Positions 2,027 through 58,387 of a DNA stretch of 64,000 nucleotides are shown here, piece by piece. Each line of letters starts with the position of its first letter. Within the stretch, counting starts at the first letter, position 1. The DNA lies in the IMG/VR virus record IMGVR_UViG_3300034071_001431, positions 1-64,000 of that record, one strand, 5' to 3'. Both the position numbers and the translations under genes were made by a program. Below the pieces are notes generated by a model that was not told the origin of the DNA, ran no database searches, and saw only the letters and a program-made list of their open reading frames with translations. The DNA comes from a virus.

Positions 2027-2197
2027 CAGAATATATCGAAGTATCACTTACTGGTGTTGGACTAAATCAACGCAGACTTATGCAGGCATGGTGGTTGGTG
2101 GTATGATGATGCTAAATGGATAGCAAGTGACCGCAAGTATTATTTTAGAGAAGAAAAAGACCGTATGCTATTTTTATTAAGGTTTGGAGCAAAATGA
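2023..2197 (+). pseudogene. Frameshifted LRW-tail array member
   Basis: The ATG at 2023 opens a frame that stops at 2104-2106. The +1 frame then carries WYDDAKWIASDRKYY and the family ending MLFLLRFGAK, with its stop overlapping the next gene as ATGA. Joining the frames near 2091-2101, inside a TGGTGGTTGGTGG repeat, gives a protein of about 58 residues like its neighbours. One extra base explains the break. Possible causes are a real mutation, a sequencing indel or +1 frameshifting before the UGA. Confidence 0.6.
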
Positions 2198-3342
2198 TAG
2201 ATACAAATTCAAAAACGTATTGTCCATTGATTTTCCATGGTATCTATGTTGAACGAACTAGCAATGGAGCATATCATATTGCACCATGTAGTACATCAAA
2301 AAAATCACAGGTATTAACTCAGAAAATTGATTTTGTTAACAATCAATCCCTTAATTTATTGCGAGTTTCGGCAAATAATAATGTACGGGCACCTCACTGC
2401 CAAAGTTGCTGGGTAGTAGAAGATAATCACGGTGAAAGTAAACGTCAAGTTTACATAGATTTGTATAGAGAAAATCAAATTCCTCAGACACAATCTATTG
2501 TATTGTTTAGTCTTGACTATAATACATTACCAATATGTAATGCTAAATGTATTATTTGCAGTCCGACCTACTCAAGTGCGTGGATTCAAGATGCACAATT
2601 ATTAAATAATACAGAGTCAAGATTTACTAAATCTACTAATATTAGTGACATCAATAAAGAACAAAATCAGCTCGATGGGTTAGATTTAACTCAACTAAAA
2701 AGTGTTTATTTCAATGGTGGTGAACCATTATTAACAAATGATCATGTCACTATATTAACGCAATTACAGAACATCAATGAAGTAGCAGTATCATATAATA
2801 TAAATGGATCTTGCTACCCAACAGAAGATGTGCTACAATTATGGAGTAAAGCCAAAGAAGTTACTTTATCGTTAAGTATTGATGGTATTAACGAGCAGTT
2901 TGAATATATTAGAAATCCACTGATATGGAAACAGGTAAGTGATAATATTGCTAAATTAAATAACTGTTTGCCCAATCTTAAAATTAATATAGCATATACT
3001 GTTGGCCTTCATAATGTGTTTGGATTACGCGAATGTATCAATTGGTGTAATACTAATATAGATAAATTTGATGTTGCTACACAATTTCATGTGCATACCG
3101 CAAATGGCAAATTAGATATTAAATTTGCAGGTAGAGAATTAAGAAAATCATTCTTAAATGAATTGTCGCTAATTGATAATAATAAATTTTATTGGGTTAC
3201 TTCTCTTAAAAATTATGTTAGATCTACAGTAGACCCAAGCAATGACTGGATGGATTATCTATATAGTCTTGACAAAATTAGAAATACAAATTGGGAAACT
3301 ACATTTGTAGAATTATATGAGAACAGTTTAAATGATAGATGA
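2194..3342 (+). CDS. Radical SAM enzyme with N-terminal auxiliary-cluster cysteines
   Basis: A 382-residue radical SAM protein. The 4Fe-4S motif C115-x3-C119-x2-C122 (LPICNAKCIICSPTYSSAW) is followed by the GGEPLL motif near 177 and SLSIDG near 228, as expected for a SAM-binding partial TIM barrel. An N-terminal segment has C10, C32 and a C69-x2-C72 pair that may hold a second cluster; such proteins are often named twitch-domain radical SAM proteins in phages. The ATG overlaps the stop of the broken small gene, so it is coupled to the peptide array. Substrate unknown. A peptide or small-protein substrate from the same array is an inference only. Two paralogs lie at 22950-25023. Confidence 0.85.
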   Translation: MIDTNSKTYCPLIFHGIYVERTSNGAYHIAPCSTSKKSQVLTQKIDFVNNQSLNLLRVSANNNVRAPHCQSCWVVEDNHGESKRQVYIDLYRENQIPQTQSIVLFSLDYNTLPICNAKCIICSPTYSSAWIQDAQLLNNTESRFTKSTNISDINKEQNQLDGLDLTQLKSVYFNGGEPLLTNDHVTILTQLQNINEVAVSYNINGSCYPTEDVLQLWSKAKEVTLSLSIDGINEQFEYIRNPLIWKQVSDNIAKLNNCLPNLKINIAYTVGLHNVFGLRECINWCNTNIDKFDVATQFHVHTANGKLDIKFAGRELRKSFLNELSLIDNNKFYWVTSLKNYVRSTVDPSNDWMDYLYSLDKIRNTNWETTFVELYENSLNDR

Positions 3343-14020: not shown

Positions 14021-14737
14021 TTAATTATTGTATACTCTTAGAAATTCAGTTGCAACCTGTTTCTGCCACGACGGACCAGGATGCGAATCTCTAGCAGAAT
14101 CTGTGGGTATAAAAGAAGTGATATATGTATTGGCTTCTAATTCGTGCAATTTAAAATTGTAATTTTTACTTAATTGATTAACTAGAAGTTTATTTTTGGC
14201 AAAATTATTATAACTTTGCAGATTATCATATAAAAACAAAGTGTCTGTGGAAATTTTATCCCACGGACCATGCAGTTTAATAGCCGGGTGCCTCGGAGTT
14301 GGAGTATGATATGATTCGAATCTATTAGCCATTGTCCACAGGATAAAAACATGCTCGGGACTGAATAACGATACTACATTGGTTAAAATTCTAGCTATAG
14401 TGTCGTTGCTTGCTCCGGCAACACCTAAATTATATACATTATATTGTGGGAAAGAATTCTTAATTATAGATACCCATGAATCTTCTTCTCTGTTTCCTAT
14501 TCCCTCAGTGAAACTACAACCTAGACACAAAATATTTGGTAATGGACTTGCAAAATCAAATTCAGTAGTTCGATATCCGTAAGAATTGTATCTATAAATT
14601 ATACTAGTTTCGCTCCAGCCAGGTGGCATTGTATTTTTAAATGATTCCTCCGAATCACTGCCACTCCAATACGAATCCCCGGGTGGATTTTTTGTTTTTG
14701 GTATTATACCCTCGGCCCAATGATTTATACTATTCAT
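14021..14737 (-). CDS. SGNH/GDSL-type hydrolase-like protein
   Basis: A 238-residue protein. Block I is ILCLGCSFTEGIGN, with Ser as candidate nucleophile; the NLGVAGASNDTIAR block fits the second conserved Gly/Asn region; DSHPGPSWQKQ near the end fits the D-x-x-H block. SGNH enzymes remove or transfer acyl groups on sugars or lipids. Two relatives lie at 29664-30377 and at the right edge. The start overlaps the iscA stop by 4 bases. Confidence 0.65.
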   Translation of the reverse strand: MNSINHWAEGIIPKTKNPPGDSYWSGSDSEESFKNTMPPGWSETSIIYRYNSYGYRTTEFDFASPLPNILCLGCSFTEGIGNREEDSWVSIIKNSFPQYNVYNLGVAGASNDTIARILTNVVSLFSPEHVFILWTMANRFESYHTPTPRHPAIKLHGPWDKISTDTLFLYDNLQSYNNFAKNKLLVNQLSKNYNFKLHELEANTYITSFIPTDSARDSHPGPSWQKQVATEFLRVYNN

Positions 14738-15057
14738 ACAGTAAATGACTCACCGCAGCCACATTCGCCGGTAGCATTTGGATTAATAAATTCAAATCCC
14801 TCATTAAGCCCTTCACGTTTCCAATCCATTTTTAGGCCATTGACATAAACTAAATCTTTTGGTGTAGTAAAAATACTAACATCATGACACTTATATTCAA
14901 TATCGTTTACAGATAGTTGATCAACAAACTCAAGAACATAACTCATACCACTACAGCCAGCAGTTTTGACGCCAATTTTAATACCTAGCGTGTTTGCTCC
15001 ACGAGCAGTGATGCTTTTCTTAATTTTCTCTGCAGCCAATTCCGTTAAACTAATCAT
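14734..15057 (-). CDS. iscA: A-type iron-sulfur carrier protein (IscA/HesB family)
   Basis: A 107-residue A-type carrier with the three conserved cysteines C35 (TAGCSGMSY) and C99/C101 (GECGCGESF). These proteins accept and deliver Fe-S clusters to target enzymes. It overlaps the flavin monooxygenase gene by 4 bases and lies in the same operon as iscU. Its presence with three radical SAM genes and a 4Fe-4S oxidoreductase suggests it supports cluster loading during infection. Confidence 0.93.
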   Translation of the reverse strand: MISLTELAAEKIKKSITARGANTLGIKIGVKTAGCSGMSYVLEFVDQLSVNDIEYKCHDVSIFTTPKDLVYVNGLKMDWKREGLNEGFEFINPNATGECGCGESFTV

Positions 15058-16367
15058 TTAAATATCATTCCTTTTTTTAGATTACAAAACTTAAAATTAA
15101 ACCATTCTTTGTAATAATTTTGATATAACTGCCAGGTTCGCTTTGGAAATTTTTCTTTTGATCTTAAAAGATAATTTGCCTTTAGTGGAAAGTCAATTGG
15201 AGTGCTATCGAAATTTGAAATACTCGGAGTACACGAATACAAATTCTTTTTTTTCATATATTTCAATATACGGATAACGTAATGACTAATTAATTCACAG
15301 CGTAATGTCCAACTCTGATTTACGTACCCAAATGCCATTGCTAAATTTGGAACTCCGGTAAACATTGTTCCTCTATAAAATATAGTATCATGTATATCGA
15401 TTGAGATACCATTTACTATTATATTAACTCCGCCTAATAATTTTATCTCGAGTCCAGTAGCAGTAATTACAATATCGCTGCTAATAATTTGGCCAGTTTC
15501 AAGTTTAATTCCATCTTTAACGTAGCTATCGATTATACTCGTTATTAACCGAATCTTGCCATTGTCTACACAATCAAAAAATTCATTATCTAAAGTTAGA
15601 CATAATCGTTGTTCCCAAGGATAATAGTTAGGTCTATCATACCTAGTTAATAAAGTAGATGCCTCTAATGGATTATTTCTGCAATAATTATAAAATTTAA
15701 GTCCTTGCCATAGCCGTTTAACCCGAGAACTTTTCTGTTGTCTAGGTGCGCTTACTATATAACCCGGACTGCGTTGAATTACAGTAACTGATTTTGCTTG
15801 CTTGGTTAGTTCAGGAGCCAATGTAACCATAGTTGCTCCACTGCCGATAATAGTAATATCTTTATCTTTATAGTCAAGTTCCTGCCAATGTTGTGGATGT
15901 ACTATTTGCCCTGCATATTGAGTTGTATCTTTGATTTCAGGAGTATGAGGATTTTTATAATTAAAATAGCCCGAACACATCATAATAAATTGACACGTAA
16001 TAGTTGGGCGATCCACTAATGTGATGTACCACTTATTATTTTTCCATTCGATTGTAGTTACATTGTGATTATATCGAATTTGTTGACTAATATTATTGTT
16101 ATCTGCTGTTTGTTTAATATAATTGTTAATATCACTGCCGTTAGGAAATTGAGTATTTCCTTTCCATGGATTAAAACTATATCCGTATGTATACATATCA
16201 CTATCGGATCTTACTCCAGGATATTTAAATAAATCCCAAGTGCCGCCAATATTATCACGGGCTTCTAAAATGATATAGGAATGGTCAGGGCAATCATGCT
16301 GTAAATAATACGCCGATTGGATACCTGCCATTCCAGCACCTACTATTACAACATCAAAGTGTTCCAT
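15054..16367 (-). CDS. Flavin-containing (Baeyer-Villiger-type) monooxygenase
   Basis: A 437-residue FAD/NAD(P)H monooxygenase. The FAD Rossmann motif is VVIVGAGMAGIQSAYYL (from residue 6), followed by GGTWDLFKYPGVRSDSDMYTY, characteristic of the Baeyer-Villiger/FMO group. YAGQIVHPQHW (151-161) matches the fingerprint FxGxxxHxxxW with Tyr in place of Phe. A second GSGATM motif (from about 175) would bind NADPH, and ATGLEIKLL follows. It would insert oxygen into a ketone or oxidise N/S atoms; the substrate is unknown. It is unusual in a phage and lies inside the iscU-iscA cassette. Confidence 0.88.
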   Translation of the reverse strand: MEHFDVVIVGAGMAGIQSAYYLQHDCPDHSYIILEARDNIGGTWDLFKYPGVRSDSDMYTYGYSFNPWKGNTQFPNGSDINNYIKQTADNNNISQQIRYNHNVTTIEWKNNKWYITLVDRPTITCQFIMMCSGYFNYKNPHTPEIKDTTQYAGQIVHPQHWQELDYKDKDITIIGSGATMVTLAPELTKQAKSVTVIQRSPGYIVSAPRQQKSSRVKRLWQGLKFYNYCRNNPLEASTLLTRYDRPNYYPWEQRLCLTLDNEFFDCVDNGKIRLITSIIDSYVKDGIKLETGQIISSDIVITATGLEIKLLGGVNIIVNGISIDIHDTIFYRGTMFTGVPNLAMAFGYVNQSWTLRCELISHYVIRILKYMKKKNLYSCTPSISNFDSTPIDFPLKANYLLRSKEKFPKRTWQLYQNYYKEWFNFKFCNLKKGMIFK

Positions 16368-16371
16368 TTAA

Positions 16372-16524
16372 TTAATTGAATATCCGATCTAATACTGCTT
16401 GTTTTTGTTCGTTTGTAAAATTGTACCATTCTACTACTTCGTCTGTTGTTCTACCACAACCGCGGCAAACTCCATCAAATAATCCGCATGCGCCGACGCA
16501 CGGGCTTTCGATTTCCTCTTCCAT
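16372..16524 (-). CDS. DUF1289 family cysteine-rich protein
   Basis: A 50-residue protein beginning MEEEIESPCVGACGLF, with four cysteines in the pattern C-x3-C...C-x2-C followed by GRTTDEVVEW, the hallmark of DUF1289. Bacterial members are small proteins thought to bind an Fe-S cluster or zinc. The gene is in a different frame from the overlapping gene at 16434-16667 and ends 4 bases before the monooxygenase start. It fits the Fe-S theme of this operon. Confidence 0.8.
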   Translation of the reverse strand: MEEEIESPCVGACGLFDGVCRGCGRTTDEVVEWYNFTNEQKQAVLDRIFN

Positions 16525-16670: not shown

Positions 16671-17056
16671 TTATCCTTGTTTATTCCTATAATCTGCAAT
16701 AGCCGCTTTAATAGCATCTTCTGCTAATACACTACAATGTATCTTAACTGGGGGTAATGCAAGTTCTTCTGCTATTGCTGAGTTTTTAATTGTGTATGCT
16801 TCATCTAATGTCATACCTTTAAGCAATTCTGTTACTAGGCTAGAACTAGCAATTGCCGACCCACATCCGTATGTTTTAAACTTTGCATCGATTATAATAC
16901 CATCTTCGACTTGAATTTGTAACTTCATGACGTCACCTGTCATCCGCAAGCTGGGGCACCGACGATTCCGGTCCCAACTTGCGCATTCTCCTTGTCTAAA
17001 GATCCTACATTTCTTGGATTTTCATAATGGTCCAAGACCGCTGCTGAATAGCTCAT
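16671..17056 (-). CDS. iscU: Fe-S scaffold IscU, reading frame split by a stop plus 8-nt insertion
   Basis: The ATG at 17056 has a strong GGAGG site and encodes 38 residues of IscU (MSYSAAVLDHYENPRNVGSL...GAPACG). A TGA stop then follows the GGA codon (GGA 16945-16943, TGA 16942-16940). The rest of IscU (DVMKLQIQV...) resumes at 16934 after a GGT codon at 16937-16935. Skipping 8 nt from GGA to GGT restores the exact family sequence ACG-DVMKL. The ligands (Cys37 in PACG, the YGCGSA Cys, the KIHCSV Cys and the Asp after ACG) are all intact. Programmed bypass, recent mutation or sequence error are all possible. First gene of the Fe-S operon. Confidence 0.85.
16935..16945 (-). other. Candidate translational bypass site in iscU
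   Basis: On the coding strand the order is GGA, TGA, CA, GGT. A glycyl-tRNA leaving the GGA and re-pairing at GGT would skip 8 nt and the stop codon. T4 gene 60 also takes off at GGA directly before a stop codon and lands on a matching glycine codon, but over 50 nt. This is inference from sequence only. Confidence 0.35.
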
Positions 17057-22949: not shown

Positions 22950-23975
22950 ATGAATAAATCTTTCTGTGTAATGCCATTCTACGGTGCCGAATATAATCAA
23001 TCTGGTTTTACAACTCCTTGTTGTTTACTTCCGTCCCATACGAATATAGCACAATTACAAGAAGAAATCCTCGATGATAAGCGACCGGCGGCATGCCAAA
23101 AATGTTGGCATCTAGAAGATCAAGGTAATACCAGTGACCGACAATTAAAAAATGCTATGTTCGACTTCTATACTGATAAAGCTATACAGTTCGTTGAAGA
23201 AGACTGCCGCAATGGTAAATTTAGTCCGCGGATTATCAAATTATATACGTCAAATTTATGTAATAGTACGTGTGTTACATGCGGCCCAACCGCAAGCACT
23301 GCATGGGCAACATTAAAGAAAATCAAGACTTTTAAAATAACAAATCAGAGTATATTAGATTCGGTGGTATTAACTGATGCAACAATGATAACCTTTGTCG
23401 GCGGCGAGCCGTTGTATGAGAAAAAGAATTTTGAATTATTGGAAAAATTAATAGAAATCGGTAACACTGCTTGTTTTATATCAATGACCACAAACGGATC
23501 GGTTGAATTAACTCCGTATCAACTTAATATTTTAAAACAATTCAATAATGTAAATTTATGCCTGAGTATAGATGGCATCGGGCCAGTATTCGAATACATG
23601 CGGTATCCACTAAAATGGTCGACTCTATTAGATAATATAGAAATATACAAAAACTCAAACATAAATTTATCAGTTAGTTACACAATTAGTAATTTAAATA
23701 TATTATATTATAACGAAACTATTGAATGGTTTGAACAATTGGGATTACCGCACAATCATAACATGGTCGATTATCCATTACATTTTTCTGTTAATGCGTT
23801 GCCAGAAGAAACTAAAAAACAATTACCAGTTAGTTTGTTTCGGGCACATGAATCGTCGGATGATTTACAATTTGCAAAATGTTTAAATGAAATTAAGAAA
23901 CAAGATCAGTTAAAGAGTATTTCGATTGATGATTTCTTACCCGAATTTGTTAATATGATCAATCGAAATACTTAA
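22950..23975 (+). CDS. Radical SAM enzyme with N-terminal auxiliary-cluster cysteines
   Basis: A 341-residue radical SAM protein. The cluster motif is C104-x3-C108-x2-C111 (NLCNSTCVTCGPTASTAW), followed by VGGEPLYE near 152 and LCLSIDG near 205. N-terminal cysteines C6, C24-C25 and C49-x2-C52 (AACQKCW) may hold a second cluster. It is similar in layout to the genes at 2194 and 23959. It overlaps the tail of the convergent radical SAM gene by 17 bases. No partner or substrate is evident. Confidence 0.87.
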   Translation: MNKSFCVMPFYGAEYNQSGFTTPCCLLPSHTNIAQLQEEILDDKRPAACQKCWHLEDQGNTSDRQLKNAMFDFYTDKAIQFVEEDCRNGKFSPRIIKLYTSNLCNSTCVTCGPTASTAWATLKKIKTFKITNQSILDSVVLTDATMITFVGGEPLYEKKNFELLEKLIEIGNTACFISMTTNGSVELTPYQLNILKQFNNVNLCLSIDGIGPVFEYMRYPLKWSTLLDNIEIYKNSNINLSVSYTISNLNILYYNETIEWFEQLGLPHNHNMVDYPLHFSVNALPEETKKQLPVSLFRAHESSDDLQFAKCLNEIKKQDQLKSISIDDFLPEFVNMINRNT

Positions 23976-25023
23976 CTATCTCTGAAAAAATTGTGCGCCA
24001 ATTATTATTTCTAATAGAATCCCATTGGTTAGTAAATTCAATGATAGGATCAATCGGCATCACATTAGTTGGTAATATCGTCGAGACATATTGATTAGTA
24101 TATTTTTCATGTATTACTTTTCGTAATGCTAGCGGAGTTCGATCTAATCCCCAATCTCCCCAACACGGATGAATATTAATTTCAGTGGCATCGCCCACTC
24201 TATTAGTTGCAAGATTTGTATGCACCCATTGTTCTAATCTATCATAGTAAAAAATATTAAATGGATTGAGTGTATGGTTAATTCTAAATAATACATTAAC
24301 TGGTGCAGTGGCCTTAAGAGTTAATAAATTACGTTCGATATGATTCCATCTCAATGGCCAACGTATGTAGTTAAATTGTTCTTCTATACCATCGATGCTT
24401 GCTTCGAAATATACAAGTTTAAATTTACTCCATAGATCAAGCAATGCAGGAGTCGGTAGTATGCTAGCATTGGTTGTGTACCAAATATCAACTTGTTCTG
24501 GATAAGGTATTTTTTCTAATACTTGTATATGACTATCTGTTAATAAGGGCTCACCGCCAAAGAATTTAATTCTCCGCAACTTCGATAAATCTACTGTAGC
24601 TAAAATAGTATCTAAATATGATTGAGCGTCATAATCCGATTTAATATGAATAACTTTGTTTTTATCTGATTGTTTAGCCCATAGTGAACTATATTCTGGC
24701 CCGCAAATAACACATGCGGCATTGCAATTAAAATCAATATTAATATCCAGGGCCACAACAGCATTATCATCGGTATCAGGAATTATATCAAAACTAGATT
24801 GTCGAAAACTATTATATCCAGCTTGCTCTTGTTTTTGACAGACTGAGCATCCCGGTATCCATCCGGTTACAGAATCTAATTGCAACTTTCTAGTTTGTTC
24901 TAAATTTTCATTAAATGGTGTTTCGCCCCTGTACCAACAACAGGGCTTTACTACTAATTTCTTATTAAGATTAATCGAATAACCATTGGAAAGAAATCTG
25001 CAGAAATTATTTGATCCTGCCAT
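23959..25023 (-). CDS. Radical SAM enzyme with N-terminal auxiliary-cluster cysteines
   Basis: A 354-residue paralog. C100-x3-C104-x2-C107 (FNCNAACVICGPEYSSLW) binds the catalytic cluster; FFGGEPLLTD near 160 is the SAM-binding motif. N-terminal C28-C29 and C59-x2-C62 repeat the auxiliary pattern. The tail FTNQWDSIRNNNWRTIF parallels the end of the protein at 2194 (KIRNTNWETTF), which suggests these two are closest relatives. It lies immediately downstream of the helicase gene. Confidence 0.87.
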   Translation of the reverse strand: MAGSNNFCRFLSNGYSINLNKKLVVKPCCWYRGETPFNENLEQTRKLQLDSVTGWIPGCSVCQKQEQAGYNSFRQSSFDIIPDTDDNAVVALDINIDFNCNAACVICGPEYSSLWAKQSDKNKVIHIKSDYDAQSYLDTILATVDLSKLRRIKFFGGEPLLTDSHIQVLEKIPYPEQVDIWYTTNASILPTPALLDLWSKFKLVYFEASIDGIEEQFNYIRWPLRWNHIERNLLTLKATAPVNVLFRINHTLNPFNIFYYDRLEQWVHTNLATNRVGDATEINIHPCWGDWGLDRTPLALRKVIHEKYTNQYVSTILPTNVMPIDPIIEFTNQWDSIRNNNWRTIFSEIVKYFD

Positions 25024-33420: not shown

Positions 33421-34855
33421 CCGCATAAGGATAGTTTGCTTCTGTATAGAATTTCTTTCTGACTGTGAGGTGACGTTTAGCAAACTTACAAGTTGATGTT
33501 ACGTCCCAGATTTGGACAAAATCTTTGTCTTCCGCTTTGCGAATGCCACGCCCGATACTTTGGATGACCCTAACAAAACTCTTACCAGGCTCAATAAGCA
33601 CAAGGTTAAAAACACGAGGAATATTGATACCGACAGCAGCAACCCCATAAGTGGCAACAGCAACAAAGTTGTCACTGGTCGCAAATTCATCATAACTTTC
33701 TTTTCTATCATTTGCTTTTGTTCCTCCCGATACAAACACAGCATCTTTAACTAACTCAACTAATGCTTTGCCTGGAGCGATACGATCAACTAAGACAAGT
33801 GTGTTGCCAGTCAATCGAATACGCTCTATCATTTTACTTATGTAATCAATACGTGCGTCGGTCTCTAATAGATATTTTAACTCGCTTTGATAATCCTTGT
33901 ATTCAACGTGATCGATTAGCTGTACAACGTTCACGTGACAGTTAGCAAGCACACCCTGGTCTTGTAATTCACTTGCGCTTAACCGCCCAATGACGTCGCC
34001 TAATGAACACTTTAATGCCATAAATTCGTACATTTCTTTAGGTATTGTGCCCGTTAATCCCCACCGAATCGGAATGTGTGCCATTACACTAGTAAGTAAA
34101 GTTTTAAGTGCATCTGCTTTAGCCATGTGTACTTCGTCAACCATTACACAAACAACACCTTCCAAAAATTCCATAATGGTAATGTCGGCTTCGTGTGCTT
34201 TGGTATTTTTAAGTAGGATGTTTAGACTTTGCCAGGTACAAATAGTATGAGTGTGTCCAAACTCTTTTCTATCACCAAAGTAAACACCAACGTCTAAGCC
34301 CAAGTTAATGTAGTCTGCTTCTGTTTGTGTTACTAATGATTTGTTTGGTACAATTACTACAGTGCGACCATATTGCTCACAGCTATAGCTTAGTGCCGCA
34401 GTAATTAATGTCTTACCTGCGCCTGTTGCAATTTCTTGTAAGCATTGTGGGTTCTCAAGGAACTTGTTAATAATCTCAATTTGATAATCCCGTAGTACAA
34501 CTGGCTGACCCGCTATTGGATGTTTTGCTGGCCATACTTTATGTGCAAACGTTTGCTCTGTCACTTGTGTAAATGCAAACTGTGTTTGATAGTCACGTAA
34601 ATCTTCTAGCTCAATATCATAACCACGCTCATCAATGTAGGCCAACATGTCGGCCAGCAAGTTAGTGTACGTGCTACCACCCAATTGGAAATATGCTACC
34701 TTGCCATCCCATCGACCAAGACGTACACTTGGTAGATAACGTGCGCCCGGGATTTCATACTTAAACTTATTGGCTAGATATTTGCGCTCTGTAAGTTCAA
34801 GTCCTTCTAACTTACAGTTCACTTCATCTTTAATTATAATTTTACATGTTGCCAT
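33398..34855 (-). CDS. uvsW: UvsW-like DNA helicase
   Basis: A 485-residue superfamily 2 helicase. Motif I is EIATGAGKTLITAAL near 135, motif II CVMVDEVHMAK (DEVH), motif III GLTGTI, and motif VI IQSIGRGIRKAED. In T4, UvsW unwinds R-loops and branched DNA and shuts off origin-dependent initiation. The start is the ATG at 34855 (MATCKIIIKDEV), which has AGGA before it and overlaps the oxidoreductase end by 14 bases in another frame. Confidence 0.92.
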   Translation of the reverse strand: MATCKIIIKDEVNCKLEGLELTERKYLANKFKYEIPGARYLPSVRLGRWDGKVAYFQLGGSTYTNLLADMLAYIDERGYDIELEDLRDYQTQFAFTQVTEQTFAHKVWPAKHPIAGQPVVLRDYQIEIINKFLENPQCLQEIATGAGKTLITAALSYSCEQYGRTVVIVPNKSLVTQTEADYINLGLDVGVYFGDRKEFGHTHTICTWQSLNILLKNTKAHEADITIMEFLEGVVCVMVDEVHMAKADALKTLLTSVMAHIPIRWGLTGTIPKEMYEFMALKCSLGDVIGRLSASELQDQGVLANCHVNVVQLIDHVEYKDYQSELKYLLETDARIDYISKMIERIRLTGNTLVLVDRIAPGKALVELVKDAVFVSGGTKANDRKESYDEFATSDNFVAVATYGVAAVGINIPRVFNLVLIEPGKSFVRVIQSIGRGIRKAEDKDFVQIWDVTSTCKFAKRHLTVRKKFYTEANYPYAVEKTEWK

Positions 34856-36887
34856 TAATTTTCCTAATGTTTGCAAATACAAATTTGTATTGCGGGCTTA
34901 AATAATCAATATTATTATCATTTGTTAACTGATTAATAATAGGATGATTTGCTATGCGTAATAAGCCTTGTTGACTATTACTAACTAGTTTACATGCTAT
35001 TGTTATTGATGTCAATTCTATTTCTAATATTACTTGCTCATTATCTGCTATACCTAATTTGATTGCATCTACGTCTGCTATCTCTATTATAGGGTCGGCA
35101 TTTGATTTAATAACTTCATTCATTGTTGTCTTTTGTCTAATCCCACATTGCAATACAAATTTGTAATTTGAGTTTTGTATTCTCTGCTCGGGCAACTTTA
35201 ATGTTGATAACAAAAATGATGGTGCTAAGTCAATTTGATGTGTTTGTTGAGTAGTTGTATTAATATCAACTCTTCCAATATCGTTAAGTTGATTAATCTG
35301 AGTGGTTGTTAATTCAAATGCTGTATCGGAATTGATACTAAGATTATGTCGAAATAATTCCCACCATACTATAGCCAATAAAGGTGTTTGGTAATTTAAT
35401 CCAATGGTATTGCGCAATATATAATAAACTTCAGGAATACGTTTATCAAACATTGCAATCAGATCAGTATAAAACTTAACAGTATCAATTTCTTTATTTT
35501 TAATTTCTGGCAACAAATTTAGTTTTGCTAAAAGTAACTCATATATTTCATTAGTGGATTTTGTATAAGACTTGGTAAGCACAGGGCTGCTTAATTGTAG
35601 CATACCATTTTCGGCATGAAATGCATTCACACATTCGTATCGTTCCAGGAACGTTGGAGTAGGCAATATATAGTCTGCTAGTTTTGCGCTTGCTGTCATA
35701 AAACTATCTAACACAATCACCAGTGGAACTTTTTCTAGTTGTGATTTAAATCTTGTTGCATTAGGCACTCGGTTGACTGGATTTGAATTATCGATTATAA
35801 CACATCCAAAATTTAAATTATCTGTTACCAATGAACCAGAAATAATTCCGTTATGCTGCGGTTTATTAGTTGTAGGAGTTTTCAAATTAGGAAGATAATG
35901 GTCCATGTATGTTAATACAGAATTCATCGACTCCATTGCATTTGGTTTTTGGTAATTACCGGTTAACATATATAACAATATAATTAGGTAATTATTAGCA
36001 AACGGAAACATACTATGGCAAATACCATTACCCGAATCAACTGCAACCGATTCGCTATCTTTTATTGTATTAACTATAGTAGTTAATTGGTGATGTGATA
36101 TATTGCATATAGATAAACAGTCAGCTAAGTTTACTTTAGCAAAATGTTGATTTACTTTATCAAACTTACTAGTATGCGTCGCTATAAATTCAGTGTTAAT
36201 TGCCTTGTCTATTATTAATTTCTTAATAATAGCAGTTAATAACCAGGCGTCTGTGCCGGGCGCAATCTTAGCATGTATATCTGCTATATTGGCTGTTTCA
36301 GTAGTGACCGGGTCTATTACAATAAGTGTCCGTGCAGTATTGTTTTTAATATCATTAAGTATTTTTCTAGCTCGTGGATAATGTTGTGTTACCCAGGGAT
36401 TTTGTCCAATAACAATAAGTGTCTGTGCTTTTTGTTTATTTGGCACGACGCCCGCTTTAAAAAATAATTTTTGAGTTACATAAGTGTATGCTTTCTCAAA
36501 TGATAAAACATTAGTTGCATACTGCACCCCTAACTTTGCCATTAGTTCATAATTATATAGCGTAGTTGCATTATACGATGGACTAAGCGGTGCCATGTAC
36601 AAAATACTATTTAAATGTGGCTTAATATCAATTGCTATTTCATCAATGGCTTGCTCCCACGTGATAGGGATAAATTCATCATTTACTTTTTTCAATGGAC
36701 TAGTAATACGGTCAGGACTAGATTGGAATTCGATTAATTGTTGGGATTTTTCACAGATATAACCTTGACTAACTGGATCATTGAAGTCAGGTGCAACTTT
36801 AATAATACGATTATTTTCAACTGTTACGTTAATGCCACATTCAGCAAGACACAGATGACAAAATGATTTTTTAATTTCAATTGACAC
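34842..36887 (-). CDS. Molybdopterin (bis-MGD) oxidoreductase with 4Fe-4S site
   Basis: A 681-residue member of the DMSO reductase/formate dehydrogenase superfamily. The N-terminal domain carries C10-x2-C13-x3-C17 and C45, a typical 4Fe-4S site (FCHLCLAECGINVTVEN...YICEKS). Next come SPLKKV and the cofactor domain (LIVIGQNPWVTQHYPRA, PGTDAWLLTAIIKKLI, DSFMTASAKLADYILPTPTFLERY). The C-terminal molydopterin-binding domain begins near 580. I see no obvious Cys or Sec metal ligand. There is no signal peptide, so it is cytoplasmic. Electron donor and substrate are unknown. Very unusual for a phage; it overlaps uvsW. Confidence 0.85.
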   Translation of the reverse strand: MSIEIKKSFCHLCLAECGINVTVENNRIIKVAPDFNDPVSQGYICEKSQQLIEFQSSPDRITSPLKKVNDEFIPITWEQAIDEIAIDIKPHLNSILYMAPLSPSYNATTLYNYELMAKLGVQYATNVLSFEKAYTYVTQKLFFKAGVVPNKQKAQTLIVIGQNPWVTQHYPRARKILNDIKNNTARTLIVIDPVTTETANIADIHAKIAPGTDAWLLTAIIKKLIIDKAINTEFIATHTSKFDKVNQHFAKVNLADCLSICNISHHQLTTIVNTIKDSESVAVDSGNGICHSMFPFANNYLIILLYMLTGNYQKPNAMESMNSVLTYMDHYLPNLKTPTTNKPQHNGIISGSLVTDNLNFGCVIIDNSNPVNRVPNATRFKSQLEKVPLVIVLDSFMTASAKLADYILPTPTFLERYECVNAFHAENGMLQLSSPVLTKSYTKSTNEIYELLLAKLNLLPEIKNKEIDTVKFYTDLIAMFDKRIPEVYYILRNTIGLNYQTPLLAIVWWELFRHNLSINSDTAFELTTTQINQLNDIGRVDINTTTQQTHQIDLAPSFLLSTLKLPEQRIQNSNYKFVLQCGIRQKTTMNEVIKSNADPIIEIADVDAIKLGIADNEQVILEIELTSITIACKLVSNSQQGLLRIANHPIINQLTNDNNIDYLSPQYKFVFANIRKINGNM

Positions 36888-42387: not shown

Positions 42388-42717
42388 ATGGACATTTATC
42401 ATATATGGGCAGACAAAGAAGGCGACATCAGTGATTTAGACTGGGTCAATAATATGAAGGGATTTTTACAACATTTAGTCGACGAGGATAAATTAGTCAG
42501 CTATCGTATTACACGTTGTAAGATGGGTTTCCGCAGTATGGATATTCCAGAGTGGCATATTATGATGGAATTTAAAGATATGGCACAGTTAGATAATGCG
42601 TTTAAACGTGTTGCTCCGTTAGAAGGTGAGTTAGAATCTAAACATAGAAGTTTCAATCAATTCGTTAAGGGCAACATCCAACACGCATTATATCGTGACT
42701 GGCCGGATAATCTATAA
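42388..42717 (+). CDS. DUF6614-like small protein
   Basis: A 109-residue protein starting MDIYHIWADKEGDISDLDWV, where GAGAGG precedes the ATG at 42388. EWHIMMEFKDMAQLDNAF and HALYRDWPDN fit the family DUF6614, whose function is unknown. It begins 1 base after the amidinotransferase stop and converges on the desaturase gene. Confidence 0.7.
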   Translation: MDIYHIWADKEGDISDLDWVNNMKGFLQHLVDEDKLVSYRITRCKMGFRSMDIPEWHIMMEFKDMAQLDNAFKRVAPLEGELESKHRSFNQFVKGNIQHALYRDWPDNL

Positions 42718-43458
42718 TTTTTTTGAAGTCTGTATAAATCGTATAATGTTTCCAAAAATATCAAACTTATAGTTGCCCCATGCATTATCATATTCAGCTG
42801 GTCGAGCATGATGGTTATTATGCAGGTGAGCACCAAGTAAAAATATTCCAGCCCATTGATTGTTGGTACTAGTATTATCCTGTGCATTATCTGCAGGACC
42901 CCACTTGTGGCATGCTACGTTTACTAAAAAATTAATCCATAGAGTCGATAATACGTTGACTGCATAATACCAAAGTAATAATGGTGATGCTAATGCTAAT
43001 ATTACAAATACTGCAACTTGAATTTTAAAATAGTGACGATGTTGTTGCACCAACCATGTATCTTTAAATAAATCTTTAACTATACGTGCTGTAAAGTCTA
43101 CGGTATTATGTTGATAAAAAATAGTGCCCCATAGATTAGTATGCGGATTGTGTGGATCTTTGTCTGTATCAGAATATCTATGATGTAATCTGTGTACTCC
43201 AGCAAACGCTACAATACTACCTTCGCCCGCCAGTGTATGTAATACTATTAATACCCGTTGATAGAACTTTGATGTAGCAAAACTGTTATGGCTCCATAGC
43301 CTGTGGGCGCCAACTTCACTTCCTATTCCTTTAGTTACAACACACAGAATAAAAATAATTATTGGAGCTTCCCACCCAATAGTTAAGTAAAAGGGCATGG
43401 TTAGCGCCAATATTGCGCTGACTATAATTAATAGCAAATGTTTAGTTTTATATGACAT
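42712..43458 (-). CDS. Membrane fatty-acid desaturase 1
   Basis: A 248-residue integral membrane desaturase of the delta-9 acyl type. Histidine boxes are HRLWSH (52-57), HRLHH (89-93) and HNNHH near 215, which hold the di-iron centre. Two hydrophobic hairpins surround them. It would put a double bond into acyl chains of membrane lipids using oxygen and an electron donor, which is not encoded nearby. One of four paralogs in the window. Confidence 0.92.
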   Translation of the reverse strand: MSYKTKHLLLIIVSAILALTMPFYLTIGWEAPIIIFILCVVTKGIGSEVGAHRLWSHNSFATSKFYQRVLIVLHTLAGEGSIVAFAGVHRLHHRYSDTDKDPHNPHTNLWGTIFYQHNTVDFTARIVKDLFKDTWLVQQHRHYFKIQVAVFVILALASPLLLWYYAVNVLSTLWINFLVNVACHKWGPADNAQDNTSTNNQWAGIFLLGAHLHNNHHARPAEYDNAWGNYKFDIFGNIIRFIQTSKKL

Positions 43459-49053: not shown

Positions 49054-49854
49054 ATGTATAAATTATTCAAACTACCAAATCTTTCTAATTATCAACAAAC
49101 TCTACTAGTACAAGCAATTTTATATAGTAGCGTAGCACTGGTGCTGTTATTTGCATTTGATTGGCTACTACTGCTAAAAGGATTACTTGTTGGTTGGGTG
49201 TTTTTTTGTTTTGCTATTTCTATTAGCTTACACAAATATGCAAGTCATCGTTCGTTTGAACCGCGCAACCGCCTTATCAAACTAATTTTATTATGGTTAG
49301 GTAACCAAGCAACCTTAGGAAGTAGCATAGGATTTGCAGCAGGGCACAGACAACATCATATATCAAGCGACACCGACGCAGACCCATTTAGACTAACTGA
49401 TTCATTTATGCATAATTTAAAACTATGGTTCTATTATTTTCCAACTGGTACTATTAGTCCACGACTAATTAAAGATTTGTCTGGTGATAAGGATTATAAG
49501 TTTTTTCACACCCATTATTGGAAAATTTGGGCAGTACTACCTGTTAGCATGTTTTGCCTACTAGGTCCTGTATATTTTGTTTATTTCTTTGCACTTCCGG
49601 TAGTATATGGTTTCTTAGGAATGAGTTATGTTACTGTAGTTGCACACTCAACAACATGGCGCAAATGGTTTAATGGAACTGCTGATTTTGATACAAACGA
49701 TCAAAGTTGGGATGGTAAATTCTTTACTGTGCTATTTGCTGGCGAAGGATATCACCACACACATCATGCAAATCCCAGCGAATACAGTTATAGTATCCCC
49801 GGGAAGCAATTTGATTTTTCAGGCTTTGTAATTAAATATATTAAGAAAGACTAA
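49054..49854 (+). CDS. Membrane fatty-acid desaturase 2
   Basis: A 266-residue desaturase with histidine boxes HKYASH (near 63), HRQHH (near 105) and HHTHH (near 231), and hydrophobic segments before and between. It is the only desaturase on the plus strand, and its end overlaps the convergent desaturase gene by 4 bases. The closest visible relative is that neighbour (shared KLWFYYFP and SPR-x-(I/V)-KDL segments), so they probably arose by duplication. Confidence 0.92.
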   Translation: MYKLFKLPNLSNYQQTLLVQAILYSSVALVLLFAFDWLLLLKGLLVGWVFFCFAISISLHKYASHRSFEPRNRLIKLILLWLGNQATLGSSIGFAAGHRQHHISSDTDADPFRLTDSFMHNLKLWFYYFPTGTISPRLIKDLSGDKDYKFFHTHYWKIWAVLPVSMFCLLGPVYFVYFFALPVVYGFLGMSYVTVVAHSTTWRKWFNGTADFDTNDQSWDGKFFTVLFAGEGYHHTHHANPSEYSYSIPGKQFDFSGFVIKYIKKD

Positions 49855-53287: not shown

Positions 53288-54052
53288 TTATTCTTTTGTT
53301 ATTTTAGCTAATTTAAAAAATTCTAATAATTTTAGTACACCCCAACCAAGATCAACTTCCCACCATTTCATTGATAATTTAGGAGATGAAGGTCTAGCAT
53401 GATGATTTGCATGTAACTCTTCCCCTCCTTGAAAAATTGCCAATGGCCACATATTAAGAGCGCGGCAACGAGGGTCATACCCTTCATTAACATATCCTAT
53501 GCCGCGATGGGTTGCATACAGCGATAACACCGTACCTATAAATGCGTGATATAATATAAAAATTGCAGGAATAATGCCCGCAATACCAAACAATACAAAT
53601 ATAATACTCAGTGAAATTCTATTTCCAAGATATGGCCAACGTCGACATATATTAATATCTACCCAATTAGTGGGATCGGTTACGTCATCTGCATATTTTT
53701 TGATATCAGCAGGGCTAGTAAAAGTAGACGGGCCACCATAATCGGTTAATTGTTTTATTGAATAAAAGTACGGACTGTGTGGGTCATCTTTTGTATCGGC
53801 ATATTGGTGATGTTTTCTGTGTCTAGTTACACTACGTTTCATCCAGCCCGGTGATATCATTTGCCATGTCGTTAACCATAATATAAGACTAGTTAATTGA
53901 ACGATAACCGGATGTAGCACTGCCATTTGATGGGCTTGTACTCTATGCATGTATATTGAGTAAGTTAATCCTTGCAATTGAATTATAATAAATGCCAATA
54001 CAACCGCTCCGTGCCAGCCCGATGTGCCAACTACTCCGAAAATATATGTCAT
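53288..54052 (-). CDS. Membrane fatty-acid desaturase 4
   Basis: A 254-residue desaturase with a variant first box (YMHRVQAHQM), then RHRKHHQYADTKDDPHSPYF and HANHHARPSSPKLS. The first box HRVQAH fits H-x3-x-H. It is the most divergent of the four. AAAGGG precedes the ATG. Together with the other three it points to active remodelling of membrane acyl chains. Confidence 0.9.
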   Translation of the reverse strand: MTYIFGVVGTSGWHGAVVLAFIIIQLQGLTYSIYMHRVQAHQMAVLHPVIVQLTSLILWLTTWQMISPGWMKRSVTRHRKHHQYADTKDDPHSPYFYSIKQLTDYGGPSTFTSPADIKKYADDVTDPTNWVDINICRRWPYLGNRISLSIIFVLFGIAGIIPAIFILYHAFIGTVLSLYATHRGIGYVNEGYDPRCRALNMWPLAIFQGGEELHANHHARPSSPKLSMKWWEVDLGWGVLKLLEFFKLAKITKE

Positions 54053-54084: not shown

Positions 54085-54160
54085 TGGTGCAACCTGTAGG
54101 AATCGAACCTACTTCAACGGTTCTTCAAACCGCCGCTATGACCACATCAGCTAAAGTTGC
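54085..54160 (-). tRNA. tRNA-Phe(GAA)
   Basis: Acceptor GCAACTT/AGGTTGC, anticodon loop TTGAAGA, T-arm GTAGGTTCGATTCCTAC and encoded CCA. It stands 2.3 kb apart from the main tRNA array, between a desaturase and a small gene. Confidence 0.9.
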
Positions 54161-54161
54161 T

Positions 54162-54353
54162 TTAATCTATTACTAGGTTTTGTTCGAGTACTTGCTTGAC
54201 TTTGTGTGCCTCTGCAATAAGCTCAGCAATCTTTTCATCAATGTTAGCATACGTTACGTCACGTACATCAATGCTAACAGTAAACTTAGTATCTAAACAA
54301 AGTTCCTTGTTAGCATTTTTGGATATTTTACCCGAAGGTGATAACTTAATCAT
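54162..54353 (-). CDS. Small hypothetical protein
   Basis: A 63-residue protein (MIKLSPSGKISKNANKELCL) with a helical C-terminus (IDEKIAELIAEAHKVKQVLE). It ends 1 base before tRNA-Phe. AGGAG lies before the ATG. Function unknown. Confidence 0.55.
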   Translation of the reverse strand: MIKLSPSGKISKNANKELCLDTKFTVSIDVRDVTYANIDEKIAELIAEAHKVKQVLEQNLVID

Positions 54354-54364
54354 ATACTACTCCT

Positions 54365-54859
54365 TTACATATTGCTTTTAGTTAAGTGATGTCTATAATC
54401 ATCACGCCAATTGTGTTGCTCGTCTGGGTTATGTGTTAACCCTAACAGCTTCATTAGTTTGTGTTTAACACGTAGGTTAGGACTACGAAACTTTTCAGTA
54501 TCTCTAAAGCCCATCATAACACCAATCTCTACTACTGCACCGCTACGACATAAACCTGCATGACAGTGAACAACAATGTTTATATGCTCAGCTAACGCAC
54601 GTTGTAGCAACTGTAAAATTGCTTCTGCTTGCGCATCGCTAATCAATGGCTCTTCACCGTACTCTGCAACATCGGTATCTTCTGCATCTAAAAACTTAAA
54701 CTGATGCACTTCTTTAAATGCATGCTTTGGTGTTGGAAAAAGAGTAATAGGGTCAACGATTTGAATAAGCATAGAGTTAGCGCCAGCATCAAAGTGCTCG
54801 CCTACTTGTATGTCTTTCATACTAACGTTTTCAATCCATGGTTTAATCATCATATTCAT
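54365..54859 (-). CDS. Dual-specificity/tyrosine-type protein phosphatase
   Basis: A 164-residue phosphatase with the P-loop VVHCHAGLCRSG (C-x5-R) near 105, preceded by a general-acid candidate in the DADTDVAEYGEE region. It would remove phosphate from Tyr/Ser/Thr or from phosphorylated small molecules. Similar proteins occur in T4-like phages. Overlaps the next upstream gene by 17 bases. Confidence 0.8.
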   Translation of the reverse strand: MNMMIKPWIENVSMKDIQVGEHFDAGANSMLIQIVDPITLFPTPKHAFKEVHQFKFLDAEDTDVAEYGEEPLISDAQAEAILQLLQRALAEHINIVVHCHAGLCRSGAVVEIGVMMGFRDTEKFRSPNLRVKHKLMKLLGLTHNPDEQHNWRDDYRHHLTKSNM

Positions 54860-55220
54860 CCTTATAATACTCGGGGTGTTTAGCTCTTACAATAAGATGT
54901 GTGCCCATTGCACTTCCACTGCTAAACTGTGCTCCTACCTTAAACTTTCTTCCGTTAAGTGTAAATGGTATTAATACACTATCGCCATTCCACCAACTAC
55001 GCTGTATACTAATATATCCATCTGCACCTAACTGCTCGCGCAACTTAGCAAACTCTGGGTGGTCAGCCGAACTCGTAGTCGAACATTCGCCCTTACCTTG
55101 TATAATTAAAATAAGTTCTTCTGCTGTGGGTACACGACCATTGCGTGTATACGTGTTCCACTCATCACGAATAGTTACACTTGTTAAGTATTCTGGGTCG
55201 ATTGTAAAGTCCACTACCAT
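54843..55220 (-). CDS. Hypothetical protein
   Basis: A 125-residue protein (MVVDFTIDPEYLTSVTIRDE) with a central WNGDSVLIPFTLNGRKFKVG beta segment and an acidic tail. It overlaps both neighbours by a few bases. Unknown function. Confidence 0.55.
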   Translation of the reverse strand: MVVDFTIDPEYLTSVTIRDEWNTYTRNGRVPTAEELILIIQGKGECSTTSSADHPEFAKLREQLGADGYISIQRSWWNGDSVLIPFTLNGRKFKVGAQFSSGSAMGTHLIVRAKHPEYYKDEYDD

Positions 55221-55474
55221 ACCTCACTTTTTAATATCTGTAGCATTACTTCTTGCTGTTCTTCTTCGGTTAGCTTTGCTAACTCAGGGCGATCTCTATG
55301 CTTATACCAAATCATATTACCATCAACAGTTAGTGTAACTATAGTATGTGCCTTGTAGACAAGTTGTCCGGGTAGTTGTGTACCGCGATATACCACATAC
55401 TGCCCGACGGTTCTACTACTGAACGCACGGTTCATATCTGCACCAAGTGGCCCCATGTCGCAATAGTATGTCAT
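55214..55474 (-). CDS. Hypothetical protein
   Basis: An 86-residue protein (MTYYCDMGPLGADMNRAFSS) with a basic beta-rich middle and an acidic helical end. Coupled to neighbours by overlaps. Unknown function. Confidence 0.5.
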   Translation of the reverse strand: MTYYCDMGPLGADMNRAFSSRTVGQYVVYRGTQLPGQLVYKAHTIVTLTVDGNMIWYKHRDRPELAKLTEEEQQEVMLQILKSEVW

Positions 55475-55635
55475 CGTTTCTTTCTAATGTTTCTATTGTA
55501 CACTTCACCGTTTGGAAGTTTACCATCTATTACGCCAGCAACTCCCATCTTTCCTACAATGATAAGTTCTTCTGGCTTAATAGTTTGTAGTGCTTCTTTA
55601 TCTTTAATCCATTGCGGTTTTAATTTAGAAGTCAT
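55471..55635 (-). CDS. Small hypothetical protein
   Basis: A 54-residue protein starting MTSKLKPQWIKDKEALQTIK. The ATG at 55635 overlaps the end of the upstream gene; the longer frame to 55713 lies inside that gene. The segment PEELIIVGKMGVAGVIDGKL suggests a small beta fold. Unknown function. Confidence 0.5.
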   Translation of the reverse strand: MTSKLKPQWIKDKEALQTIKPEELIIVGKMGVAGVIDGKLPNGEVYNRNIRKKR

Positions 55636-55987
55636 ATACTTTTGGTTTTCCATCTGTGTGTAAATAATGCCACAACACTTTCTTATCGAAGTCTGCTCGT
55701 ATAGTCGGGTCACTGCACCATTTTTTAACTATGTCAGCATTACCATAACTATTGTGTGGTGCATGATGTACAATCCATTTGGCAATATTTGCCATTGATG
55801 GACTGTTTGCATGATCTGCTTTAAATGCCGCAGTAAACAGATCACCCTCGAGCATAGCAGTTAAAAAACTACCCGGCTCCATACCATGTACAAAGTATCG
55901 TACCAATGCTTCGTGGGCAGGTTTCGGAATACTATACGTTGTCTGCCAGTCATTGTATTCTAACCAATCTAATTCACTGTGTGCCAT
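55625..55987 (-). CDS. Hypothetical protein
   Basis: A 120-residue protein starting MAHSELDWLEYNDWQTTYSI at the ATG at 55987 with a GAGAG site. It lies 1 base after the stop of the DUF7448-like gene. Helical, with Trp-rich ends. Unknown function. Confidence 0.6.
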   Translation of the reverse strand: MAHSELDWLEYNDWQTTYSIPKPAHEALVRYFVHGMEPGSFLTAMLEGDLFTAAFKADHANSPSMANIAKWIVHHAPHNSYGNADIVKKWCSDPTIRADFDKKVLWHYLHTDGKPKVYDF

Positions 55988-55988
55988 G

Positions 55989-56387
55989 TTACTGCTCTCT
56001 TTTAAAAGAAACTTCCTCTGAATAGTAACCGTTGCTTGAACCATACCATCTGATGTCAACGTACCCTTTGCGAGTTGCTAATTTATAAAATGTCCATGTG
56101 TGTGACCCGTATTCATCTTCTTCTACTTCACCTGCAGATTTAATCAAGTCAAATAAGTTTTGTGCTTCTTCTGCCATTAAGATTTCTTCGCCAACTAAGT
56201 CAGCTAAGTCACCAACGATAGATTCGATTGATACTGATTCACAACAAGATTGTTCGTGATACAAAGTGTATACTTCGCCGTCTGTAGTCACAAACTTCAT
56301 TTCATCGTTGTATTCGTTGACTACTACGCTTGTCAACACTTTACCTTTTAATTCGTTAAATTCTACTTCTTTATAGTTGTAAGACAT
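55989..56387 (-). CDS. DUF7448-like phage protein
   Basis: A 132-residue protein. YTLYHEQSCCESVSIESIVG and DLADLVGEEILMAEE fit a family (DUF7448) found in many phages; function unknown. AGGAGG precedes the ATG and a strong promoter lies at 56414-56442. First gene of the unit down to the phosphatase. Confidence 0.7.
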   Translation of the reverse strand: MSYNYKEVEFNELKGKVLTSVVVNEYNDEMKFVTTDGEVYTLYHEQSCCESVSIESIVGDLADLVGEEILMAEEAQNLFDLIKSAGEVEEDEYGSHTWTFYKLATRKGYVDIRWYGSSNGYYSEEVSFKREQ

Positions 56388-56413
56388 AATAGCCTCCTTT
56401 TTTAATTAAGTGT

Positions 56414-56442
56414 ATTATACATTCATATTGTTGTTTTGTCAA
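56414..56442 (-). promoter_or_regulatory. Sigma70-type promoter
   Basis: TTGACA, 17 bases, TATAAT on the minus strand. It lies just past the 3' end of the tRNA array and restarts transcription for protein genes. Confidence 0.8.
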
Positions 56443-56450
56443 TCGAAATT

Positions 56451-56524
56451 TGGAGCGGCTAGCGAGAATCGAACTCGCGATTAAACTTTGGCAAAGTTTT
56501 AGGTTTCCATTACATCATAGCCGC
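56451..56524 (-). tRNA. tRNA-Gly(GCC)
   Basis: Anticodon loop TTGCCAA on an AAACT/AGTTT stem, T-arm GCGAGTTCGATTCTCGC and encoded CCA. Last tRNA of the array. Confidence 0.9.
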
Positions 56525-56533
56525 ATTTTAATC

Positions 56534-56597
56534 TTACTGCTCAGTAACATTTGAACTGATTTAGCCGGTTTTGACGGCAAATGTTACTGAGCAGTAA
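56534..56597. repeat. Perfect 20-bp inverted repeat in tRNA spacer
   Basis: Arms 56534-56553 and 56578-56597 are exact reverse complements around a 24-base loop. It fills the gap between tRNA-Arg(ACG) and tRNA-Gly(GCC) and would form a long RNA hairpin. Confidence 0.9.
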
Positions 56598-56606
56598 CAT
56601 TTTATT

Positions 56607-56684
56607 TGGTGCGCCCGGAGGAAATCGAATCCCCAACCTCATGCTTCGTAGGCATGTGCTCTAATCCAATTGAGCTACGGTCGC
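56607..56684 (-). tRNA. tRNA-Arg(ACG)
   Basis: Anticodon loop CTACGAA on a CATGC/GCATG stem and encoded CCA. One A-G mismatch in the acceptor stem. Confidence 0.88.
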
Positions 56685-56698
56685 ATTAAAACTACTAT

Positions 56699-56753
56699 GC
56701 TAGTATTTTAGAAGTATTATAAGGATAGTTGCCTAAAATACTACTATACTAGC
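56699..56753. repeat. Imperfect inverted repeat in tRNA spacer
   Basis: GCTAGTATTTTAG faces CTAAAATACTACTATACTAGC; the second arm carries an 8-base insertion. It lies between tRNA-Arg(TCG) and tRNA-Arg(ACG). Confidence 0.75.
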
Positions 56754-56763
56754 TTTTATGATT

Positions 56764-56833
56764 TGGAGCCCCCGAACGGTATCGAACCGCTTCTTTCGGC
56801 TTCGAAGGCCAAAGTCCGTCCATCGGCGGGGGC
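56764..56833 (-). tRNA. tRNA-Arg(TCG), reduced D-arm
   Basis: Acceptor GCCCCCG/CGGGGGC, anticodon loop CTTCGAA, T-arm GCGGTTCGATACCGT and CCA. Only 70 nt long. The D-arm shrinks to CCG-ATGGA-CGG directly after the acceptor. It may be functional but atypical. Confidence 0.7.
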
Positions 56834-56839
56834 ATTGTT

Positions 56840-56916
56840 TGGTAGAGATGGTAGGATTTGAACCTACGGTAGCTTGCGTATGAAGCAAGTGCATTAGGCC
56901 ACTATGCTACATCTCT
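56840..56916 (-). tRNA. tRNA-Met or Ile2 (CAT)
   Basis: Anticodon loop TTCATAC on a CTTGC/GCAAG stem, acceptor AGAGATG/CATCTCT, CCA encoded. The first pair A-T rules out an initiator. Elongator Met or lysidine-type Ile cannot be told apart here. Confidence 0.88.
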
Positions 56917-56926
56917 ATATCGAAAG

Positions 56927-57003
56927 TGGAGTATGTGACAGGAGTCGAACCTGCATAATACGGGGTTGCAATCCGCAGCTTATCCATTCAGCTACACACA
57001 TAC
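56927..57003 (-). tRNA. tRNA-Cys(GCA)
   Basis: Acceptor GTATGTG/CACATAC and T-arm GCAGGTTCGACTCCTGT. The anticodon stem GCGGA/CCCGT has an A-C pair next to loop TTGCAAC, giving GCA. Confidence 0.8.
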
Positions 57004-57009
57004 ATTGTT

Positions 57010-57085
57010 TGGCACCCCCTGATGGACTCGAACCACCGAATGACAGGATCAAAACCTGTTGCCTTACCAGCTTGGCGAAGAGGGT
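57010..57085 (-). tRNA. tRNA-Gln(TTG)
   Basis: Anticodon loop TTTTGAT on ACAGG/CCTGT, acceptor ACCCTCT/AGGGGGT, discriminator G and CCA. Confidence 0.9.
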
Positions 57086-57236
57086 ATAAGTGATATTTTT
57101 AGAATGAGTTGGGAGTTATCCTCCCCGGATGTCCGTAATCCTAAGTTCGAGGTTGCAACTCCTTAGGGGTCACTAGTAAATTCTAGCTATAGCAGGGTGC
57201 GCATTGTTAAGTGGCGAGCCCGGACAATTCTTTGTT
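57086..57236 (-). other. Non-coding spacer, 150 bases
   Basis: Between tRNA-Arg(TCT) and tRNA-Gln. It contains a small GGGAG/CTCCC hairpin near 57110-57125 but no complete tRNA or credible frame. Confidence 0.5.
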
Positions 57237-57311: not shown

Positions 57312-57317
57312 AATTAC

Positions 57318-57407: not shown

Positions 57408-57417
57408 AAATGCTATA

Positions 57418-57828: not shown

Positions 57829-57846
57829 ATTATTCCTTAATAAAAT

Positions 57847-58380: not shown

Positions 58381-58387
58381 ATTGACT

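Follow-up and report, generated by a model that had tools for sequence, protein, structure and literature searches.

The iscU gene carried by the viral DNA analysed here is divided between two reading frames, and its arrangement is best explained, with a probability of roughly 0.78, as a programmed short translational bypass that constitutes, or used to constitute, a mobile cassette together with a homing endonuclease. The DNA, hereafter the window, is a stretch of 64,000 nt covering positions 1 to 64,000 of the IMG/VR record IMGVR_UViG_3300034071_001431. The gene lies on the minus strand, which the preliminary description of this DNA had left unstated, and its anatomy can be read directly as follows.

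16943 to 17056, minus strand: first part of iscU, codons 1-38, from the ATG at 17056 to the take-off GGA (sequence; Pfam match)
16988 to 16993, minus strand: Shine-Dalgarno motif AAGGAG within the coding sequence, 4 nt 5′ of the hairpin (conservation of AGGAG)
16945 to 16983, minus strand: hairpin with 5′ arm 16983-16969, loop 16968-16962 and 3′ arm 16961-16958 plus 16955-16945, interrupted by a 2-nt bulge (folding, covariation)
16945 to 16943, minus strand: take-off codon GGA, codon 38 (Gly) (sequence)
16940 to 16942, minus strand: stop codon TGA, immediately 3′ of the take-off GGA (sequence)
16938 to 16939, minus strand: CA, the remainder of the gap, which with TGA makes up the 5-nt spacer from take-off to landing (sequence)
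16935 to 16937, minus strand: landing codon GGT, adjoining the conserved Asp codon GAC (landing conserved among split relatives)
16671 to 16937, minus strand: second part of iscU, in the other frame, from the landing codon to TAA (sequence; Pfam match; purifying selection)

The first part matches positions 2-35 of the Pfam NifU_N profile and the second part positions 34-124, so that no IscU residues are missing; the protein had been described as complete though split over two frames, and these matches bear that out. A hop from GGA to GGT spans exactly 8 nt and gives a product reading ACG-DVMK, precisely as had been proposed, and the three cluster cysteines and the Asp that were said to be kept are all present. 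The miniature bypass that the preliminary description had put forward as possible is likewise supported by a variable hop with a constant landing, selection on the second frame and three features that the description did not mention: a covarying hairpin, a Shine-Dalgarno motif and an adjacent nuclease gene.

Protein searches of viral contigs returned both split and uninterrupted relatives. Pattern scans in which GAPACG had to be followed by a stop yielded, once duplicates were removed, at least 81 distinct viral iscU versions from many metagenomes, all split at the same glycine codon; 51 uninterrupted phage iscU genes served as the control set. As the scans demanded a stop after GGN, the occurrence of a stop directly after take-off in 81 of 81 versions follows from the design of the search. 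Hop lengths vary, with one version at 5 nt, three at 6, 40 at 7, 18 at 8, 16 at 9 and three at 10, and all three frame relations are represented (43, 19 and 19 versions by length modulo 3); landing is constant, at GGN-GAY with its conserved Asp in 81 of 81. The gap has no conserved sequence except its stop codon, and the spacer ranges from 2 to 7 nt across relatives. Take-off and landing codons always share GG; matching at the wobble base as well was tested for and is not supported, full identity being found in 30 of 81 versions against 24.4 expected, with no excess, and the window itself combining GGA with GGT. The hairpin of the window and its TGACA gap recur together in seven other distinct loci, which answers the suggestion that the junction be sought in relatives; recurrence on this scale lies far outside chance.

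Both parts of the split genes show the signature of purifying selection, with pN/pS values of 0.246 before the gap and 0.198 after it, compared with 0.174 and 0.182 for the corresponding parts of uninterrupted genes, synonymous differences being near saturation. As the value for the second frame is like that of uninterrupted genes, the downstream frame is being selected as protein. Searches that started from the hairpin or from the nuclease also retrieved rare forms whose gap has no stop, GGT-TGTT-GGA and GGT-A-GGC, the latter a 4-nt hop; the loci concerned (L425, L426 and L428; L443 and L444) place UGU or AGG in the ribosomal A site, and L428 ends at the take-off codon. A pattern scan of cellular genomes, one per species for about 85,000 species, gave chance matches and no split iscU. 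Among isolated phages, an undivided iscU-like gene is listed in both annotated records inspected, and searches of open-licence papers found none on bypass in iscU.

A hairpin lies directly 5′ of the take-off site in every split version. In the window it is a 39-nt fold in which pairing extends up to and including the first G of the take-off codon. Ten pairs of its lower stem are formed in all of 41 distinct split sequences, with 41 cells altered on both sides; one pair is seen as CG, AU, UA and GC, spanning a change between Gln and His codons. The covariation score of the split set was reached by none of 500 shuffles, whereas the same columns in 49 uninterrupted genes behave like shuffled ones (the hairpin-bearing L036 being left out of this control). 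Folding relative to synonymous shuffles gave a mean z of -3.73 in the split set, compared with -0.57 in the uninterrupted one, and the hairpin is absent from the 51 uninterrupted controls save for L036. In L036 and L280, the iscU gene is uninterrupted and keeps the hairpin, with the gap absent and no nuclease adjoining; these hairpins are possibly relics that persisted after loss of the gap. When the other genes of the examined loci were searched for the same succession of Shine-Dalgarno motif, hairpin and stop, 12 weak candidates were found, none of them convincing.

The Shine-Dalgarno motif sets split and uninterrupted genes apart just as sharply: of 79 split versions, 76 have AGGAG at a distance of 3-7 nt on the 5′ side of the hairpin, in two codon registers, versus none of the 51 uninterrupted genes (Fisher's test, 5e-33, a guide only, as the sequences share ancestry). 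Once the hairpin is folded out, the distance from AGGAG to the landing codon is 8-14 nt.

The link with a mobile element comes from the neighbouring gene. A family of nuclease-like genes encoding about 200 aa sits directly 5′ of iscU in 54 of the 81 split loci and in none of the 51 uninterrupted ones; in the DNA examined, no member was found at the remaining 27 split loci, several of which retain what look like remnants of the nuclease end. Its members, referred to here as putative homing endonucleases, combine an invariant DH...N...N with paired Cys motifs and WNKG repeats. PHROG matches name HNH endonucleases, weakly, and the top structural matches of an AlphaFold model (pLDDT 83) are the HNH domains of Cas9, also weak; Pfam gives no clear match for most members, a search for a solved structure related by sequence found none, and isolates hold distant matches only. 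At L173 (546-1298), 5′ of a split iscU with a hop of 10 nt, the N-terminal part of the family is kept and a restriction-like DUF559 nuclease part replaces the HNH, a swap of catalytic domain. At L139 and L275, the usual place of the nuclease directly 5′ of a split iscU is occupied by other NUMOD3 proteins, which on inspection of their sequences resemble HNH and GIY-YIG nucleases. When searches were started from the nuclease, every informative neighbour was iscU, either split or uninterrupted with an altered target region, and never the canonical uninterrupted form. The nuclease adjoins such an uninterrupted, diverged iscU at 18 loci (L386, L394, L395, L409, L416, L433, L446 and others), mostly reading GAPSCGDVL, and this divergence is perhaps another route to resistance against the nuclease.

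A tree built without the hairpin calls for at least 14 changes between the split and uninterrupted states and at least 16 changes of hop length, many of its branches being weakly supported. In pairs of loci with identical cassettes, the nucleases are mostly 88-100% identical and the iscU sequences after the gap 71-85% identical, with iscU identity dropping within about 23 nt of the landing site. In most cases, then, the nuclease, the 5′ part of iscU and the hop site are passed on as a unit and the part of iscU 3′ of the hop diverges; in general, this is the trace expected of co-conversion next to a cut site. In four same-cassette pairs the nucleases are only 54-56% identical, which indicates that cassette and nuclease can separate. 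In many relatives the nuclease gene seems to spread the hop site as a selfish element, and the copy in the window appears to be a descendant that has parted from its endonuclease. A search for the nuclease elsewhere in the window's record did not find it, an empty answer of this kind being weak evidence, and the cassette reading therefore depends on relatives, L136 and L128 among them, that have the same hairpin and gap.

From these patterns in the sequences we infer a hop that leaves the gap untranslated, aided by the Shine-Dalgarno motif and the hairpin, in an element spread by cleavage and homing. The ribosome would translate IscU up to Gly codon 38 and meet the stop codon; peptidyl-tRNA-Gly would then detach from GGN and re-pair at the GGN downstream, 8 nt away in the window and 5-10 nt in relatives, to give ...ACG-DVMK.... 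Re-pairing of the hairpin, with its 5′ arm outside the ribosome exit, could pull on the mRNA and move the ribosome forward; the lower stem, about 11 pairs long, could draw in about ten nt, which would fit the range of hops. Once folded, the hairpin would also leave AGGAG and the landing codon roughly as far apart as a Shine-Dalgarno motif and a start codon are in initiation, and anti-Shine-Dalgarno pairing there could catch the ribosome at landing. As to origin, the hop site may be the resistance half of a mobile cassette, in which the homing endonuclease encoded 5′ of iscU would cut uninterrupted iscU near ACG-D, the insert would block cleavage of the element's own copy, and the Shine-Dalgarno motif, hairpin and hop would restore IscU.

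The split could also be served by termination and reinitiation, in which translation would stop after ACG and restart on the second frame, in the window at the ATG within GGATGA or at the ATG of DVM, IscU being made as two chains. The ATGA overlap of the window, the Shine-Dalgarno motif and an ATG three codons past landing in most versions agree with such a restart; nevertheless, ATG, GTG and TTG are all absent from the 32 codons past landing in 13 of the 81 versions, and in two of the 13 the upstream part of that frame lacks them as well. Restarting at DVM would moreover leave GGN-GAY untranslated, although it is kept in every version, and a split between the Cys and Asp of the active-site loop would probably be harsh for a scaffold protein, all of which makes reinitiation unlikely. 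Ordinary frameshifting or stop readthrough, joining the frames and lengthening the stretch from ACG to D by one to four residues, is quite unlikely: the three frame relations occur with the same hairpin, Shine-Dalgarno motif and landing codon, so that no single shift or readthrough serves all versions, even if 7-nt hops could be +1 shifts as in prfB, where a recoding Shine-Dalgarno motif is known (PMC5009743), and 6- and 9-nt hops could be readthrough. Added residues would also lengthen an active-site loop of constant length in uninterrupted genes, and this explanation leaves the retention of both Gly codons unaccounted for.

A gene that is decayed or misassembled, carrying a plain insertion and yielding no functional product, is very improbable. 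A short insertion is indeed the sole DNA difference between split and uninterrupted genes, and the preliminary description had given an assembly error and a plain 8-nt insertion equal standing with bypass; however, the same insertion is common to dozens of relatives, and the split ones add the hairpin, the Shine-Dalgarno motif, purifying selection on both parts and the adjacent nuclease gene. For the family as a whole, assembly error and pseudogene are ruled out by the 81 related versions and by selection on the second frame. Uninterrupted relatives, which had been held to count against bypass, do exist, but their split counterparts carry features unexpected for a plain insertion. It is also highly improbable that the gap is removed from the RNA by hairpin-guided cleavage and ligation: a stable hairpin does adjoin the short segment that has to be omitted, but the gap is only 2-7 nt long and has no conserved sequence beyond the stop, and the Shine-Dalgarno motif fits a process based on the ribosome. 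To our knowledge, such removal has no bacterial precedent.

The proposed bypass of the gap by the ribosome has a known counterpart in gene 60 of phage T4, where a 5′ stem-loop is believed to refold and thereby pull on the mRNA while the ribosome departs from a GGA that precedes a stop (PMC5009743, PMC11194080). There, the topoisomerase gene was split by a homing endonuclease, against whose cleavage the 50-nt insert is believed to give protection (PMC5009743); the nuclease is MobA (PMC2988022). The iscU element resembles gene 60 in its Gly take-off directly before a stop, its Gly landing and its 5′ stem-loop, and resembles gene 60 and MobA in having a neighbouring, here putative, HNH-type homing endonuclease and an insert thought to be protective; the comparison with gene 60 made in the preliminary description is therefore apt also in the stem-loop and the nuclease, which it had not included. 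As in T4-type bypass, two protein parts lie apart by a gap, in any frame relation, and make up a complete IscU, the gap presumably staying untranslated. Unlike gene 60 with its 50-nt hop, the iscU element would hop 4-10 nt, its hairpin reaches the take-off codon and is preceded by a strong Shine-Dalgarno motif, the wobble base is unmatched, the target is iscU, and many variants exist instead of one. By inspection, the consensus of the first part of iscU contains no nascent-peptide motif of the KKYK type.

Other systems share some traits with it. The mitochondrial byp elements of Magnusiomyces capitatus (81 sites in 12 genes) are said to be independent of mRNA context (PMC5009743); like the iscU element, they are numerous short inserts that would inactivate their genes if not bypassed, with take-off and landing codons not always perfectly matched, whereas the iscU element occupies one gene and has a conserved hairpin and Shine-Dalgarno motif. 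A short gap in another phage gene likewise has a Shine-Dalgarno motif 5′ of it, but is linked to the codon UUA and not to a stop, and the review mentions neither a homing endonuclease nor a hairpin for it. Synthetic stop-hops have also been set up in E. coli (Weiss 1987, cited in PMC5009743), with a tRNA passing over a stop that is flanked by matched codons close to each other; these were built constructs, unlike the natural iscU element, and the review knew of no natural in-frame case. The +1 frameshift of prfB also combines a stop codon at the shift site with an internal Shine-Dalgarno motif, yet it is one fixed shift with the motif 3 nt 5′ of the shift codon, whereas iscU has three frame relations and a hairpin between motif and site.

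We lean, by a little better than even, towards regarding the iscU element as a second natural class of bypass, in which refolding of a hairpin would pull the ribosome, a Shine-Dalgarno motif would stand at initiation distance, landing would reuse the docking of initiation, and neither a nascent-peptide signal nor fully matched codons would be needed; with the homing endonuclease, it would constitute a mobile element in which hopping replaces an intron or intein. Known natural examples of programmed bypass are few, and shorter counterparts of gene 60 have long been presumed and were still scarce according to a 2016 review (PMC5009743); here, dozens of natural variants of one short element are available. 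Their variation covers hop length, stop codon, spacer and Gly codons and thus makes the roles of the hairpin, the Shine-Dalgarno motif and codon matching directly testable. If the reading is correct, this would be the second phage case in which a homing endonuclease is paired with bypass, a pairing that suggests a general route by which selfish nucleases could keep their own genome safe with no need of an intron. Split iscU genes of this kind would be labelled as broken by automatic annotation.

Within the window, genes for an IscA-like protein, a flavin oxidoreductase and a DUF1289 protein follow 3′ of iscU on the same strand (14734-16524, minus strand) and probably form one Fe-S operon with it. 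Possible clients of the phage IscU are three radical-SAM-like proteins and a molybdopterin oxidoreductase with an Fe4S4 domain (2194-3342, 22950-23975, 23959-25023 and 34842-36887). The window also encodes an array of 25 tRNA genes (54085-61756, minus strand), two of them tRNA-Gly with anticodons GCC and UCC, and three fatty acid desaturases (42712-43458, 49054-49854 and 53288-54052).
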